Origin: an uncultured Flavobacteriales bacterium
GTDB taxonomy: Bacteria > Bacteroidota > Bacteroidia > Flavobacteriales_G > Salibacteraceae
NCBI GenBank assembly: GCA_943788725.1
Contig: CALSRJ010000001.1
Span: 680,861-744,860 of the forward strand
Reading direction: 5' to 3'
DNA: 64,000 nt
Shown: piece by piece, positions 32,571-61,234 of the stretch
Position numbering within the stretch: the first letter of the stretch is position 1
Layout of the letters: each line of letters opens with the position of its first letter
Notes under the pieces: generated by a model
What the model saw: only the letters and a program-made list of their open reading frames with translations
The model's database searches: none
What the model was told of the DNA's origin: nothing
Translations under genes and position numbers: made by a program

Positions 32571-32597
32571 TTGTTTTAGCCATTAAAATTGAACACC

Positions 32598-32810
32598 ATG
32601 AAAAAGCTCCTCCTCCTCCTCCTCCTCGTCGTTGCCTTGTCGACGACAGCGTGCTCGACTTGCTACGAATGCTACCAACAAGTCCCTTTGATCGATGCCA
32701 ATACTGGCGACACCATCGACTACACCACTGATACCGATGATTTTTGTACGGCTGATGCTTCAGAGGTTTCTCAAAAGGAATCAAAAGGAGCTGTGTGTCA
32801 GGTACAGTGA
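32598..32810 (+). CDS. Small Cys-rich lipoprotein (CxxCYxC family)
   Basis: A 70-residue lipoprotein with a poly-Leu signal and lipobox LSTTAC. Directly after the lipidated Cys comes S-T-C-Y-E-C, then two further Cys (FC and VC) near the C-terminus. The same C-x2-C-Y-x-C layout recurs in the genes at 34586 and 61034, and a variant at 35787. ATG 32598 is used; a TTG nine bases upstream is unlikely. It is probably co-transcribed with bshA. Its TGA abuts the TAA of the opposing LON gene. Function unknown; the Cys cluster may bind metal or handle disulfides. Confidence 0.75.
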   Translation: MKKLLLLLLLVVALSTTACSTCYECYQQVPLIDANTGDTIDYTTDTDDFCTADASEVSQKESKGAVCQVQ

Positions 32811-33458: not shown

Positions 33459-34604
33459 TTAAAACAACGGCCATATCTCACCTTGGCGCAAATAACCACC
33501 TCGAATCGAGTTGGTGAGCACAATAGCCACCTTGTCCTCCGCACCGGACATCCAGAAATACGATCGGAATCCACGCCACCAGCCATTGTGGAAGATCAGC
33601 GTATCTGACTCCATGGGTCGAATTCTCCATCCCAGGCCGTAGAATTGACCATTGTCACTCCGGATAGATGGTCTCATTGCTTCTTTCAGCAAGGAGGCAG
33701 ACCAGATCTCGGCTTTGCGAAGCCCCTTGTACAATTTGAAAAGATCACCCACGGAACTGTAAAGACTTTTGTCGCCAAGCACAGCATCCAGGTAAAAGGG
33801 TCGTTTAGGGTCTCCATTTGGATAATGGCCCAGTACTCGGTATTCATCCGATGGCCTATCCCAAGCATTCAAATAATGGGTGCTGTCCATTTGCAGTGGA
33901 TCAAATATCTCGCGTTCCATGAAAGTTTGGAAGCTAAGACCACTCACCCGTTCAATCAGGACCGGAAGCACTGCATAGTTCGTATTGCAGTAATCAAAGC
34001 GCTCGTGTGGCGGGTGGTACGTAGGCACTTGCTCACATCGAATGATGTCGTACACATCATCATTGCTCATAAATGAATCTGGGTTATTCCAAAGGCTATC
34101 CGTCACGTAGATGTAGTTACCCATGCCGCTGGTATGATCCAGAAGACTGCGCACCGTGATTTCCTTATCCGGAAAATCAAAAAGATACTCACGCACCGGG
34201 TCGTCAAGCACCACCTTACCTAACTCAACCAAGCGTAAAATTCCCAAGGCGGTAATCGGTTTAGATAAAGAAGCCAATTGAAATACATCCCCGATGCGAA
34301 GGGTGTCATTCTCTCGCAATCTTGTTTTTCCAATGGCAAAGCGACTGATGGAGTCGTTGGACGAAAGGAGCACCACTCCATTGAACCTTCCATTCGCGGA
34401 GAGCGAATCAAAGTAGGCCCTCGCCACAAAGCGATCGACCTGAATGGTGACCTCCTGCTCAGCCTCTGCAATGGTCGGCTCTTTCTTTGGCGCATTGTCA
34501 GATGAGCATCCCAAAAGCAGAACGATGATCACAAACAAAAAACCCCGAATCTTCGGGGCTAATATCTTTAGAATGGCAGTGTATGTCACTTCACTTCTGC
34601 GCAT
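33459..34604 (-). CDS. Class-C beta-lactamase-like serine hydrolase, lipoprotein
   Basis: A 381-residue penicillin-binding/beta-lactamase fold protein. The signal FLFVIIVLLLGC ends in a lipobox. Motifs: S-L-S-K in LASLSKPITAL near residue 112, Y-C-N in FDYCNTNYAVLP and H-N-G in LIFHNGWWRGF. Most homologues are esterases or D-aminopeptidases, not antibiotic resistance enzymes. The ATG at 34604 lies inside the end of the upstream lipoprotein gene, and that gene's intrinsic terminator lies within the signal-peptide codons of this one, so expression may depend on read-through. Confidence 0.87.
   Translation of the reverse strand: MRRSEVTYTAILKILAPKIRGFLFVIIVLLLGCSSDNAPKKEPTIAEAEQEVTIQVDRFVARAYFDSLSANGRFNGVVLLSSNDSISRFAIGKTRLRENDTLRIGDVFQLASLSKPITALGILRLVELGKVVLDDPVREYLFDFPDKEITVRSLLDHTSGMGNYIYVTDSLWNNPDSFMSNDDVYDIIRCEQVPTYHPPHERFDYCNTNYAVLPVLIERVSGLSFQTFMEREIFDPLQMDSTHYLNAWDRPSDEYRVLGHYPNGDPKRPFYLDAVLGDKSLYSSVGDLFKLYKGLRKAEIWSASLLKEAMRPSIRSDNGQFYGLGWRIRPMESDTLIFHNGWWRGFRSYFWMSGAEDKVAIVLTNSIRGGYLRQGEIWPLF
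34537..34558 (-). terminator. Intrinsic terminator inside the next gene's signal-peptide codons
   Basis: Minus strand: CCCCGA-AGAT-TCGGGG followed by six T. It lies 28 bases after the stop of the small lipoprotein gene and within codons ~16-23 of the serine hydrolase frame. Confidence 0.7.
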
Positions 34605-34819
34605 GAACAGGTGAAATCTTCAAAAGAACCAAACTCAGATTCACAACGCTCCTGATAGTTACCGAAGTCGCCTTTAGATCCGCAAATTTCAGGATAAGCA
34701 TAAGCCGCCACTTGATCTTCATCCAAGGCGGTACATTGGTAACACTTCTTACAAGAGGACATTCCAATAACCAAGGCTACGAGTCCCAAAACCATTCCTA
34801 CTCTCTTCATTTTCATCAT
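34586..34819 (-). CDS. Small Cys-rich lipoprotein (CxxCYxC family)
   Basis: A 77-residue lipoprotein with signal MVLGLVALVIGMSSC. The lipidated Cys is followed by K-K-C-Y-Q-C-T, then ICGSKGDF, RCESEF and a terminal CSC, giving eight Cys after export. It is the last gene of an operon with the MauE-thioredoxin fusion and another Cys-rich lipoprotein, and a terminator follows. Starts at 34819, 34816 and 34810 are all ATG; the first is given. No known function; reduction or maturation by the adjacent thioredoxin-domain protein is inferred. Confidence 0.78.
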   Translation of the reverse strand: MMKMKRVGMVLGLVALVIGMSSCKKCYQCTALDEDQVAAYAYPEICGSKGDFGNYQERCESEFGSFEDFTCSCAEVK

Positions 34820-34852
34820 CAGTTTTCTCAACGTGAGAAATGCGAATATAGT

Positions 34853-35779
34853 CTAGTCTAAAGCGAGTAGCTCACTGAGTAAACGAATATTCACATCACG
34901 TCCTTTCCATTTTTTTGATACTTCACCTCCTTCCAAATAAAGGACCGTTGGGAAAGTGCCATCGATCGCACCGATCAACTCCCGATCCTTTGTTTTGACG
35001 TAATGAAAGTCCTGGATTCCCGTTTCCTGGACGAAGTACTCTACTCCAGCATCCTCCCCCACAATGATGATACGCAGGTCATCTGCAACTTCACCCGCAT
35101 CGAGTGTTGCCATGAATGAACTCAATTGGGCGCAATGAATACAATTCGACAACATGACCACTACTGTTTTATTGCCTTCTTCCATTGGAGATTCGGCACC
35201 AAACGACTCTCTACTGAGCAATTCCAAGTCTACTTCAAAATCCGCATCCTGAGAGAATTCAGGCATGGGTTCGATCAAGATTAAAACAGGTATGGCCAAA
35301 ACAGCCAGCAGAGGGCCCGCTACATACAAGGACCATTTTTCTGCCCACGCCAATCGAATCAAGAGCATTCCACCGAGCAACATGAAACCAAAATTCTTGA
35401 TCAAACTACTGGGTCCGTTCAAAGGAATCAATTCACCAAAACAGCCACAATCTGCCCCCCCTTCTCCCTGCATGATTTGCCTGAAAAGGAAAATTTGGAA
35501 GACACTTAGCAGCGCAAGGCTAAACCACAATGAAAAACGCAGCCGATAGCCGCTCAAGAGGAAAACACCCAACCCAAATTCCGATACGAGCAATATGCGC
35601 GATGCTACTGGAACCAAAGCCCATGAAATCCCAGCCTGGTGGACCAGGATCAATTCAAAATAATCGAGCGGGAAAAGCTTCAAAATTGCCGAGGCAATGA
35701 ACAAAGCTCCGTAGAACATCCGTACAAATGGGAAGCTCCGCTCCAAAATGGAAGGCGCGTTTTCTTCTAGGTGATCCAA
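34853..35779 (-). CDS. MauE/DoxX-like membrane domain fused to thioredoxin-like domain
   Basis: A 308-residue protein. Residues ~15-175 form a MauE/DoxX-type four-helix membrane domain (SAILKLFPLDYFELILVHQAG, ILLVSEFGLGVFLLSG) with a conserved ADCGCFGE loop between helices. Residues ~200-308 are thioredoxin-like: TVVVMLSNCIHCAQLSS carries the CXXC, and AIDGTFPTVLYLEGGEV has the cis-Pro region. MauE proteins aid disulfide formation in methylamine dehydrogenase; the DoxX/MauE-thioredoxin fusion suggests membrane-to-periplasm thiol transfer. The start is TTG 35779, the only start after an in-frame stop. It lies between two Cys-rich lipoprotein genes. Confidence 0.85.
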   Translation of the reverse strand: MDHLEENAPSILERSFPFVRMFYGALFIASAILKLFPLDYFELILVHQAGISWALVPVASRILLVSEFGLGVFLLSGYRLRFSLWFSLALLSVFQIFLFRQIMQGEGGADCGCFGELIPLNGPSSLIKNFGFMLLGGMLLIRLAWAEKWSLYVAGPLLAVLAIPVLILIEPMPEFSQDADFEVDLELLSRESFGAESPMEEGNKTVVVMLSNCIHCAQLSSFMATLDAGEVADDLRIIIVGEDAGVEYFVQETGIQDFHYVKTKDRELIGAIDGTFPTVLYLEGGEVSKKWKGRDVNIRLLSELLALD

Positions 35780-35786
35780 TGTTTAC

Positions 35787-35993
35787 TTATTTATCCTCCT
35801 TCCAAGTGCAGATGCTGCGATCTTCACAGTCTTCTTCAACCAACTCTGCTTCACTCTTTCTCAATCCTGGATAGTGCGTCGCCTCTTCAAGGGTGGTGCC
35901 TTCAGCCTCCACTTCACAGACACATACGTAATCTGTGGTGCATGACGACATCGCTACCGCGAAGAGTACACATATGACCATTGCATGCTTCAT
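35787..35993 (-). CDS. Small Cys-rich lipoprotein (variant of CxxCYxC family)
   Basis: A 68-residue lipoprotein with signal MVICVLFAVAMSSC. After the lipidated Cys comes T-T-D-Y-V-C-V-C, then EDCEDRSICTW near the C-terminus, so it has five Cys. It keeps the tyrosine and paired Cys of the related lipoproteins but lacks the first CxxC spacing. It is the first gene of the operon with the MauE-thioredoxin fusion (7 bases apart), with a -7 box upstream. Confidence 0.72.
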   Translation of the reverse strand: MKHAMVICVLFAVAMSSCTTDYVCVCEVEAEGTTLEEATHYPGLRKSEAELVEEDCEDRSICTWKEDK

Positions 35994-36011
35994 TTCATCA
36001 TTGCTTTGGAA

Positions 36012-36019
36012 CAAATGTA
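36012..36019 (-). promoter_or_regulatory. -7 box for the Cys-lipoprotein/MauE-thioredoxin operon
   Basis: Minus-strand TACATTTG, a full TAnnTTTG match, 18 bases before the ATG at 35993. No clear -33 TTG at usual spacing. Confidence 0.5.
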
Positions 36020-36087
36020 CGAGCTTCGGGATTGAGCCTTGGGCTCCTCCTGTCAATTCTTTAACTTCGGCATTCACACGCTTTACC

Positions 36088-36528
36088 ATGGGCTACACAC
36101 TGAAAGGAGTCAAATACGATGTGAAGGTTCTCCTCGCTTGGGGAGAGAGCATTTCTGGCAATAAGAAGATCACTGAGTTCTTGATGAAGAACGGCTTTCC
36201 TGAACTGGGGCTTTTTCACTACGCCCTCAGGAATGAAGAGCGCAGCCGCGATTGGTTGATGGAGAATAAGTTCCCACACCTACTCGCGCTTATCAGCGCC
36301 ACAGAAGGCAGCAAGGACGCTCGTAAGTGGCTTGCGCAGCAGGGATTCGATTTGCTTTTAGACATGGCACTTTCTGCAGACGGCGATGAAGATGCATATG
36401 CCCGACTTCTAGGGGCAGACATGAAAGTTTTTGCCGTCATTTCAAAGAAGATCGAGTCGATTAAAGATGAGATCGAAGAACGGAAATTTGACCCTCACAA
36501 GTACTCCAGTTCTCAAGGAGGTGGATAA
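36088..36528 (+). CDS. Hypothetical alpha-helical protein
   Basis: A 146-residue cytoplasmic protein, no signal peptide, rich in helices with a repeated W-L-x-x-N/Q-x-F pattern (SRDWLMENKFPHLLAL and ARKWLAQQGFDLLLDM, and FLMKNGFPELGLF before them), three to four repeats of about 35 residues. I do not recognise the family; an armadillo-like helical repeat is possible. ATG 36088 begins MGYTLKGVKYDVKVLL; upstream in-frame ATGs at 35935 and 35974 would overlap the opposing lipoprotein gene. A TAACTTCG -7-like box lies 18 bases upstream. Its TAA abuts the TGA of the opposing MORN gene. Confidence 0.65.
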   Translation: MGYTLKGVKYDVKVLLAWGESISGNKKITEFLMKNGFPELGLFHYALRNEERSRDWLMENKFPHLLALISATEGSKDARKWLAQQGFDLLLDMALSADGDEDAYARLLGADMKVFAVISKKIESIKDEIEERKFDPHKYSSSQGGG

Positions 36529-44511: not shown

Positions 44512-44856
44512 CTATTTCTCCCATACCACTTCTTCGAGGGTAGCATTCCCGTAGAATTCCTGTTCTCGGCATTCCGTAATGCCGGCGAATCCACCTAACG
44601 CGCAAACCGAGTTACAATTTTCATCAAAGACGGGGGTTTGAAAATCGGCACCTCCCTCATAATTGAAAACGTACACCTTCTCATCTTGGAACTCATAGCG
44701 CTCCACCCGAACCAATTCGATCTCTCCGATTGGGACACTGGCATCGATTTCCTTTTTGATACAGGCTGGAATGTCTTCGTCCTTATTGCAACTGGAAGAA
44801 CAAAAGAGCAAACCGCACAGCAACAATACTGGAACTTCTTTGAGGGATAAACGCAT
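44512..44856 (-). CDS. DUF6970-like lipoprotein
   Basis: A 114-residue lipoprotein (lipobox FCSSSC). CIKKEIDASVPIGEIELV, a YVFNYEGG strand, FDENCNSVCALGGFAGI and a final tryptophan resemble the DUF6970 family, which has paired Cys. It differs from the CxxCYxC lipoproteins in spacing. It ends 40 bases from the opposing PKD lipoprotein. Function unknown. Confidence 0.7.
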   Translation of the reverse strand: MRLSLKEVPVLLLCGLLFCSSSCNKDEDIPACIKKEIDASVPIGEIELVRVERYEFQDEKVYVFNYEGGADFQTPVFDENCNSVCALGGFAGITECREQEFYGNATLEEVVWEK

Positions 44857-61033: not shown

Positions 61034-61234
61034 ATGCGGAACGGACTCCTCATCACTGCTGCTTTTGCCACACTCATTTCGTTGACCGGGTGCTGGAAAT
61101 GCTATGAATGCACGGCTTCAACCGAATATGGAGATGTATCGAGAGATGTTTGTGGCCGAAAAAGCAATATCCAAAACCTTGTCCGTGAACTCGAATCAGA
61201 CACCATAGGCGTAGGTCCATGGATCTGCAAATAG
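61034..61234 (+). CDS. Small Cys-rich lipoprotein (CxxCYxC family)
   Basis: A 66-residue lipoprotein with signal ITAAFATLISLTGC. Directly after the lipidated Cys is W-K-C-Y-E-C-T, then VCGRKSN and a terminal WICK, five Cys in all. The CGRK segment is like ICGSKG of the paralogue at 34586. A -7 box lies four bases before the ATG. It is monocistronic and stands 25 kb from the other three family members. Function unknown. Confidence 0.75.
   Translation: MRNGLLITAAFATLISLTGCWKCYECTASTEYGDVSRDVCGRKSNIQNLVRELESDTIGVGPWICK

Follow-up and report, generated by a model that had tools for sequence, protein, structure and literature searches.

In one bacterial class in which no DsbB was found, many families encode a probable disulfide-forming membrane enzyme beside tiny cysteine-rich lipoproteins, its likely clients. 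The example described here lies in a 64,000-nucleotide stretch (the window) of the genome of an uncultured Flavobacteriales bacterium, where the gene of a MauE-thioredoxin fusion stands between those of two small lipoproteins, A and B. On balance, and with modest confidence, we read this operon as coding for an enzyme that is anchored in the membrane and forms disulfides, and for the small lipoproteins it oxidizes.

Gliding and secretion in Bacteroidota involve functional disulfides, as reported in the available text of PMC12635249. Because DsbB was detected in 0 of 396 genomes of the class and VKOR in 32, yet disulfides are functional, the source of Bacteroidota disulfides is a real question. 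The locus supplies a candidate disulfide-making enzyme, with its small neighbors as ready test substrates. It also indicates an abundant class of lipoproteins, with at least 14 matches to the family of lipoprotein A (A2) in one genome and members without a Pfam match. Among the papers listed in open-access literature searches, judged by title and abstract opening, none on MauE-thioredoxin fusions with lipoproteins was found.

Operon organization

The minus-strand order is lipoprotein A, fusion, lipoprotein B and terminator. The features of the locus, and two related genes of the window, are as follows.

36012..36019, minus strand: candidate promoter, a Bacteroidota-type -7 box (TACATTTG), 18 bases 5' of the lipoprotein A ATG
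35787..35993, minus strand: lipoprotein A, 68 aa, A2 family
34853..35779, minus strand: MauE-thioredoxin fusion, 308 aa, TTG start
35441..35449, minus strand: codons of the CGC motif, fusion residues 111-113, in a putatively periplasmic loop
35132..35143, minus strand: codons of the CIHC active-site motif, fusion residues 213-216, in the thioredoxin-like domain
34586..34810, minus strand: lipoprotein B, 74 aa, A3 family
34541..34560, minus strand: intrinsic terminator 3' of lipoprotein B, stem 34560-34541 with a T-run
32598..32810, plus strand: small lipoprotein with a lipid cysteine and four others, about 1.8 kb from lipoprotein B
61034..61234, plus strand: small lipoprotein of the B/C kind with a lipid cysteine and four others, unlinked to the operon

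Much of this layout had been proposed in the initial annotation, and the TTG-started membrane protein with its CGC and CIHC motifs, the five mature cysteines of lipoprotein A (lipid cysteine included) and the closing terminator were all recovered. The eight cysteines ascribed to lipoprotein B were corrected to seven, the lipid cysteine and six more. The gap from lipoprotein A to the fusion is 7 bases as described; the second gap, given as about 33 bases, measures 33 when lipoprotein B starts at ATG 34819 and 42 from ATG 34810. The proposed -7 box is present, its assignment following what we take to be the Bacteroidota consensus, but the window contains 30 copies of the motif TANNTTTG, where chance alone would give 34, and the box is therefore weak evidence of a promoter for the operon. 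Terminator-like sites in 34400-36200 number four, compared with 1.9 expected from shuffles, and a similar hairpin can be read in 6 of 10 loci of the genus. Against a relative of 88% identity, the dN/dS values of the three genes were 0.09, 0.06 and 0.07; purifying selection is thus acting on all three. This selection, and the finding of the same gene order in other genomes, argue that the operon is more than a chance arrangement. A scan of genome contigs with the fusion yielded one locus.

Features of the fusion protein

Residues 18-141 of the fusion match the MauE family (PF07291; E 1.4e-20, 74.3 bits against a cut-off of 27), and DoxX (PF07681) stayed below its cut-off of 23.6 with 14.8 bits. 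Predicted membrane helices are followed by a thioredoxin-like domain that is probably periplasmic. Loop charges alternate, which suggests that the C-terminal domain shares the periplasmic side of the membrane with the CGC loop. No thioredoxin model in Pfam matched the fusion at E 1; compared with PDB chains as a profile (A1), its thioredoxin part was most similar to ResA (E 7.2e-6). This similarity, the CxxC motif and a presumed cis-proline place the domain among thioredoxin-fold oxidoreductases. In the Pfam scan the fusion matched neither DsbA (PF01323) nor Thioredoxin_4 (PF13462), and DsbB (PF02600) and VKOR (PF07884) were absent among its matches at E 1. The BT_3928 family (NF045576) was matched with 52.9 bits, below the equivalog cut-off of 250. 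A structure model from a two-sequence input had a mean pLDDT of 39.5 and was unusable.

In 81 compact fusions, which are those fetched from a larger number of full-length matches, all four cysteines are invariant, as is Pro 277, the presumed cis-proline. The middle glycine of CGC is kept in 79 and the thioredoxin motif reads CxHC in 75, including CPHC in 43. CPHC is the active site of DsbA and CGHC that of PDI; the ResA/TlpA-type motif is CEPC and that of thioredoxin CGPC. By its sequence, CxHC thus resembles the site of an oxidase. Against an oxidase counts the position of ResA as the nearest solved sequence, ResA proteins being reductases. Were the fusion reductive or isomerizing, it would hold the lipoprotein cysteines reduced or correct their mispairs, drawing cytoplasmic electrons via another protein. 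The proximity of ResA-type thioredoxins, the isomerase-like character of CGC and the existence of partners devoid of CGC are in keeping with such a role, but the CxHC found in 75 of the 81 is neither CEPC nor CGPC, and the operon encodes no source of cytoplasmic electrons; we consider this unlikely.

Linkage across genomes

A lipoprotein was counted as linked if it was small, had at least three mature cysteines and lay on the same strand within 600 bp. Conserved linkage in related genomes had been set beforehand as a check on the annotation, and it was found for 58 of the 81 compact fusions and for all 8 fusions devoid of CGC (P-type). In bins extending to 300, 800, 1500, 2500 and 5000 bp around the 81 fusions, same-strand lipoproteins numbered 76, 30, 7, 2 and 1, compared with 0, 0, 3, 3 and 11 small lipoproteins having at most two cysteines and 1, 2, 1, 10 and 1 small cysteine-rich lipoproteins on the opposite strand. 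The ten in the 2500-bp bin are presumably lipoproteins of the 32598 kind from members of the genus. With a limit of 700 bp, 18 of the 20 families represented among 89 compact loci have a linked lipoprotein, four ORFs having been excluded by eye from this family count as spurious (L066, L068, L080, L129), which leaves 58 of 81 unaffected. Four further fusions outside the 81 (L009, L010, L013, L021; flanks up to 1.5 kb) each have a lipoprotein. Long MauE proteins, used as controls and taken from their length alone to be of the BT_3928 kind, have a linked lipoprotein in 2 of 32 cases (2 of 19 with CxxC, L153 and L156, and 0 of 13 lacking it).

Co-occurrence points the same way. A2 lipoproteins (E 1e-9 or lower) were found in 70 of the 79 genomes with a compact fusion compared with 28 of the 317 others, counts that ignore shared ancestry and that score at most 14 A2 and at most 5 fusion candidates per genome; the fusion, A2, DsbB and VKOR searches presumably covered one shared set of 396 genomes.

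Against the pairing, 23 of the 81 compact fusions are unlinked, including 12 of the 17 in family f42, and five unlinked fusions lie at contig ends. Near the unlinked fusion L120, a 45-residue frame with a lipobox and CxC was seen at -317 to -162. Outside the class, no such lipoprotein adjoins any of nine MauE-thioredoxin loci (7 compact, 2 longer; L231-L239) within flanks of about 0.8-1.5 kb, and the enzyme is therefore probably not exclusive to lipoproteins. These loci and most of f42 would also fit a general periplasmic disulfide oxidase for class members devoid of DsbB, with lipoproteins as mere frequent neighbors or one class of client, as would the 0 of 396 genomes with DsbB and the six further lipoproteins of this type in the same genome as A and B. 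Compact fusions, however, are present in only 79 of the 396 genomes, and the linkage, found in 18 of 20 families, is seen again with a shortened thioredoxin, so that we regard a general role as rather unlikely.

The shortened form was seen in genomes with no compact fusion, where the lipoprotein adjoins a membrane thioredoxin of 217-232 aa in 6 of 14 fetched loci; the other eight have no such neighbor. These short proteins carry CPFC, CPYC, CPHC or CKYC, and five are on the same strand as the lipoprotein and one (L217) converges on it. CGC is absent from the 8 P-type fusions and seemingly also from the short partners, so a relay from CIHC to CGC cannot be general.

In the DsbB search, the positive control matched in 6 of 14 named genomes. 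VKOR was present in 2 of the 79 genomes with a fusion and in 30 of the 317 others, and mutual exclusion of the two was rejected as too weak (Fisher p 0.06). The genome of the operon itself yielded no DsbB, VKOR or Thioredoxin_4 (PF13462). It encodes one DSBA-family protein (PF01323) with CSWC, separate from the fusion, which could be forming disulfides instead.

Cysteine-rich lipoproteins

Lipoprotein A has the lipobox MSSC and carries its lipid cysteine, CxC and two single cysteines, with a sixth cysteine inside the signal peptide. The six non-lipid cysteines of lipoprotein B follow the pattern CxxC ... C ... C ... CxC. Searches of the genome with family profiles matched A with A2 (E 2.5e-13) and B with A3 (E 6.2e-30). 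Besides A and B, six such lipoproteins are encoded in the genome, two in the window and four elsewhere. The protein at 61034..61234 matches A3 (E 3.7e-8), and that at 32598..32810 matches weakly to both profiles (E 0.002 for A2 and 0.017 for A3). A further A2 match in the genome (C3:202157, E 5.9e-4), also a lipoprotein, has just one non-lipid cysteine, which goes against the parity described below.

Cysteine conservation within the families, also set beforehand as a check, held: the lipid cysteine, CxC and two later cysteines are invariant in 42 A2 rows, which were chosen as CxC-type and are informative only through their spread over divergent sequences. The number of non-lipid cysteines is even (2, 4, 6 or 8) in 120 of 122 linked rows, which are related sequences and hence non-independent events. 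By eye, cysteine number changed by two or more at least six times and never by one. The two odd numbers come from the L068 ORF and from L118, which would have four if a second, downstream lipobox were used; among the six rows that have two non-lipid cysteines, three (L066, L080, L129) are doubtful and were kept in the count. Even numbers suggest structural disulfides and favor disulfide-bonded clients.

Judged by gap pattern, CxC is the commonest arrangement, with 83 of 122 distinct linked sequences, and CC, CxxC and two-cysteine forms with neither also occur beside the fusion. The prevalence of CxC would suit thiol-disulfide carriers that take oxidizing or reducing equivalents from the fusion and shuttle them to other proteins of the envelope. 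A precedent is the twin-cysteine pair of SprF (Cys324, Cys326), which bonds to GldK in Flavobacterium johnsoniae according to the available text of PMC12635249. The presence of the other arrangements beside the same enzyme speaks against carriers, as do the variability of the middle part and the occurrence of forms with 6 or 8 cysteines, which resemble structural pairs; we give this explanation a small but real chance. Clustered cysteines (CxC, CxxC) in even numbers would also fit thiolate sites, the fusion keeping the thiols ready for a bound metal. But none of the three genes is a metal gene, cysteine spacing varies freely, A2 has no match among PDB sequences at E 1, and the best structural hits of B (Z 4.5) are unrelated proteins. 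Metal binding is thus very improbable, and the metal-transfer scaffold suggested in the initial annotation found no support.

A Pfam scan of 42 A2 and 18 A3 members gave no match. The PG1828 lipoprotein family (NF050142) matched 16 of the 42 A2 members (best E 4.5e-6) and residues 4-23 of the lipoprotein at 32589 (15.5 bits against a cut-off of 50), and did not match A or B at E 1. With four sequences as input, AlphaFold models lipoprotein B (mean pLDDT 70.8) in the order strand-strand-strand-helix-strand; a fold assignment was rejected, with a best Foldseek E of 0.45 and the VIA-align hits noted above. Homology of the A and B families was likewise discarded, the hhalign probability of 96% with signal peptides falling to 6.9% on mature parts. 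A surface-export motif near the lipid cysteine is described in the available text of PMC5080379; a lysine followed by two acidic residues stands directly after this cysteine in 5 of 115 linked lipoproteins, and surface exposure was not adopted.

Proposed mechanism

Returning to the disulfide-forming enzyme and its clients, we infer that the reaction runs in the oxidative direction and that the neighbors are clients with structural disulfides. The CIHC domain would face the periplasm. As lipoproteins A and B emerge and are lipidated, it would hand its disulfide to their non-lipid cysteine pairs, and probably also to those of unlinked relatives. Once reduced, it would be re-oxidized by the CGC pair of a putatively periplasmic loop in the MauE helix bundle of the same chain; from the bundle, electrons would enter the respiratory chain, with a quinone as the probable acceptor. 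The earlier suggestion that the lipoproteins serve an envelope thiol-exchange system as substrates or partners agrees with the linkage and the cysteine conservation; the redox reaction itself we infer.

More speculatively, MauE-thioredoxin fusions and their shortened forms might add a third type to the bacterial machines that generate disulfides, DsbB and VKOR. Such a machine would unite generator and thiol donor in a single chain and serve a large, undescribed class of tiny disulfide-bonded lipoproteins in class members devoid of DsbB. In this tentative scheme the membrane part has been rebuilt repeatedly (full MauE with CGC, MauE lacking it, truncated), and thioredoxin and lipoprotein have been kept together.

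Comparison with known systems

The SprF/PorG twin-cysteine pair and GldK of gliding and type 9 secretion are likewise a case of functional disulfides between Bacteroidota envelope proteins, although the available text of PMC12635249 names no oxidase for that system. The BT_3928 family shares a MauE-like N-terminal part with the fusion (E 3e-14), but the fusion scores far below its cut-off and the long MauE controls are rarely beside lipoproteins (2 of 32).

DsbA-DsbB and VKOR-thioredoxin fusions combine a membrane cysteine pair with a periplasmic thioredoxin domain. The present fusion may work in a similar way by analogy, but its membrane pair is the CGC of a MauE part, and neither Pfam family was matched.

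MauD has a thioredoxin-like fold, and the fusion is best likened to MauE and MauD joined in a single chain. It has been speculated that MauE forms the disulfides of the small subunit of methylamine dehydrogenase (available text of PMC7794033, citing van der Palen 1997). The candidate RiPP clusters of Streptomyces (decRiPPter) are alike in combining MauE/MauD homologues with a precursor that has eight or more cysteines; they differ in phylum and in having predicted RiPP precursors rather than lipoproteins, and a fusion goes unmentioned in the available text of the same source (PMC7794033). The mau system of Paracoccus differs in that the operon described here has a single chain, no mau genes among seven scanned neighbors, and lipoproteins of two families that have no Pfam match. 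In both, as far as the available text on the mau system goes, a MauE-family membrane protein and a thioredoxin-like partner would serve small disulfide-rich proteins, in Paracoccus the subunit MauA.

Operon organization

The operon lies within 34537-36019, and its minus-strand gene order is as the initial annotation described it, with two small lipoproteins around a MauE-thioredoxin fusion and then a terminator; lipoprotein B, credited there with eight Cys, has seven.

35787-35993, minus strand, lipoprotein A
34853-35779, minus strand, MauE-thioredoxin fusion, 308 residues
34586-34810, minus strand, lipoprotein B
34560-34541, minus strand, terminator hairpin after lipoprotein B
33459-34604, beta-lactamase-fold serine hydrolase lipoprotein (PF00144), after the operon

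Residues 18-141 of the 308-residue protein match MauE (PF07291, 74.3 bits, cut-off 27). No Pfam thioredoxin model matched the C-terminal part on its own, and a profile of the fusion family (A1) matched thioredoxins of solved structure, including ResA (best E 7.2e-6). The fusion is the single match in its own 2.93 Mb genome, and comparison of all three operon genes with a relative of 88% identity (JABMOM010000027.1, 'Flavobacteriales bacterium') gives dN/dS <0.1.

The hairpin after lipoprotein B (region 34530-34560) lies within what appears to be the N-terminal coding part of the serine hydrolase gene, so its translation yields a conserved peptide such as RGFLF. This overlap recurs in 6/10 genus loci examined (L122-L126 are concerned) and reflects either a mis-set start or an attenuator. 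Frames resembling the serine hydrolase lipoprotein also come after the fusion region in genus loci.

Profiles of the families of lipoproteins A and B (A2 and A3) recovered six more small Cys-rich lipoproteins in the same genome, each having four or six non-lipid Cys, plus a further match (C3:202157, E 5.9e-4) that has just one. The window also holds a small lipoprotein of a different kind (44512-44856), with a lipid Cys and four Cys. Pfam gave zero matches at E 0.01 for 42 A2 and 18 A3 members, and A2 had no sequence match among PDB entries.

Conservation of the fusion and its linkage to lipoproteins

A fusion match was present in all 12 other genus members searched, including G009, where a contig end truncates it, and G002, where a TGA was reported yet an intact 293-residue frame is present. 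Matches at 1e-3 occurred in 42/60 relatives, many limited to the MauE part, and at 1e-20 in 130 of the 396 class genomes, longer MauE proteins included. From a subset of full-length matches, 120 neighbourhoods were examined and 121 proteins sorted, the window's own included, into 81 compact fusions with C-x-C-x-G (CGC in 79), 8 compact fusions without it, and 32 longer proteins.

Linkage, defined as a small lipoprotein with >=3 mature Cys on the same strand within 600 bp, was conserved in 58/81 and 8/8 compact fusions, respectively, versus 2/32 longer MauE proteins (L153, L156). Widening the limit to 700 bp and dropping four doubtful ORFs left these figures at 58/81 and 8/8, across 18/20 families. 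Same-strand Cys-rich small lipoproteins numbered 76, 30, 7, 2 and 1 by rising distance bin, versus 0, 0, 3, 3 and 11 for those with <=2 Cys; the neighbour excess is limited to nearby Cys-rich lipoproteins. The 23 unlinked compact fusions include five located at the end of a contig, of which L114 shows a truncated lipoprotein, and 12 from family f42; among the genomes of these 12, 11 have an A2 match elsewhere (1e-3). Up to five tandem lipoprotein copies surround one fusion (L137).

By raw counts that ignore kinship, an A2 lipoprotein (1e-9) was found in 70/79 genomes that carry a compact fusion of either type (CGC or CGC-less; one is partial) versus 28/317 others, some of which carry long MauE-CxxC proteins or broken fusions. 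In 14 of these 28 genomes, lipoprotein loci were hand-picked among strong A2 matches. At six, the lipoprotein adjoins a membrane protein of 217-232 residues that contains a thioredoxin-like domain; the two genes share a strand at five of these loci and converge at the sixth. The other eight have no such neighbour. Alignment suggests that these short partners are fusions that lost the CGC helices, their A1 similarity possibly resting on the thioredoxin part alone. Six lipoprotein loci in f42 or f22 genomes with the fusion elsewhere (L222-L227) had no adjoining thioredoxin.

Cysteines and topology

Cys 111, 113, 213 and 216 and Pro 277 are invariant across the 81 compact fusions, and His 215 is present in 75. 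Mean K+R per loop, counted from the N-terminal end up to the loop that precedes the last helix, is 2.05, 0.28, 1.95, 0.72 and 1.37. These charges alternate per the positive-inside rule, from which we infer that the CGC loop and thioredoxin domain would share the periplasmic side.

Non-lipid Cys in 122 linked lipoprotein rows number 2 (6 rows), 4 (91), 6 (22) or 8 (1), and the only two odd counts are both doubtful. Lipoprotein types vary in Cys spacing while totals stay even, as paired bonds would require. One lipoprotein (L149:4407-4769) has two extra GCT...DDGSC-like repeats before its CxC domain and 8 non-lipid Cys, still even.

Proposed function

The initial annotation proposed the lipoproteins as substrates or partners of an envelope thiol-exchange system. 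The fusion most likely acts oxidatively, as a DsbA-like thiol donor that would be fused to its own membrane generator; this reading draws on the CxHC site, the even Cys numbers, the putative shared compartment, and the class-wide scarcity of DsbB (0/396 genomes) and VKOR (32 of 396). Against it, the sequence neighbours of the thioredoxin part are ResA-like, and forms without CGC retain the lipoprotein. Additionally, the genome's sole PF01323 match (G000:C1:266195-266749), a CSWC protein of the DSBA family that apparently carries a signal peptide, is a possible alternative periplasmic thiol enzyme. In L142, L145 and L146 the MauE part lacks CGC, and a CPYC, CPHC or CPFC thioredoxin and adjoining lipoprotein are kept.

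Thr/Ser-rich middles and tandem copies of the lipoproteins would suit a surface or interaction role; an export signal was not evident in linked lipoproteins (5/115). Nine MauE-thioredoxin loci outside the class (seven compact, two longer; three lower-scoring places left out) had no such lipoprotein nearby, which argues that the enzyme predates the pairing or extends beyond it.

Comparison with known systems

MauE, thioredoxin and lipoprotein are each of a known kind. Among the open-access papers listed, judged from titles and abstract beginnings, none describes the one-chain MauE-thioredoxin form or its lipoprotein pairing. The closest described arrangements (PMC7794033) pair MauE/MauD with the small subunit of methylamine dehydrogenase or, in Streptomyces clusters, MauE homologues with Cys-rich precursors.
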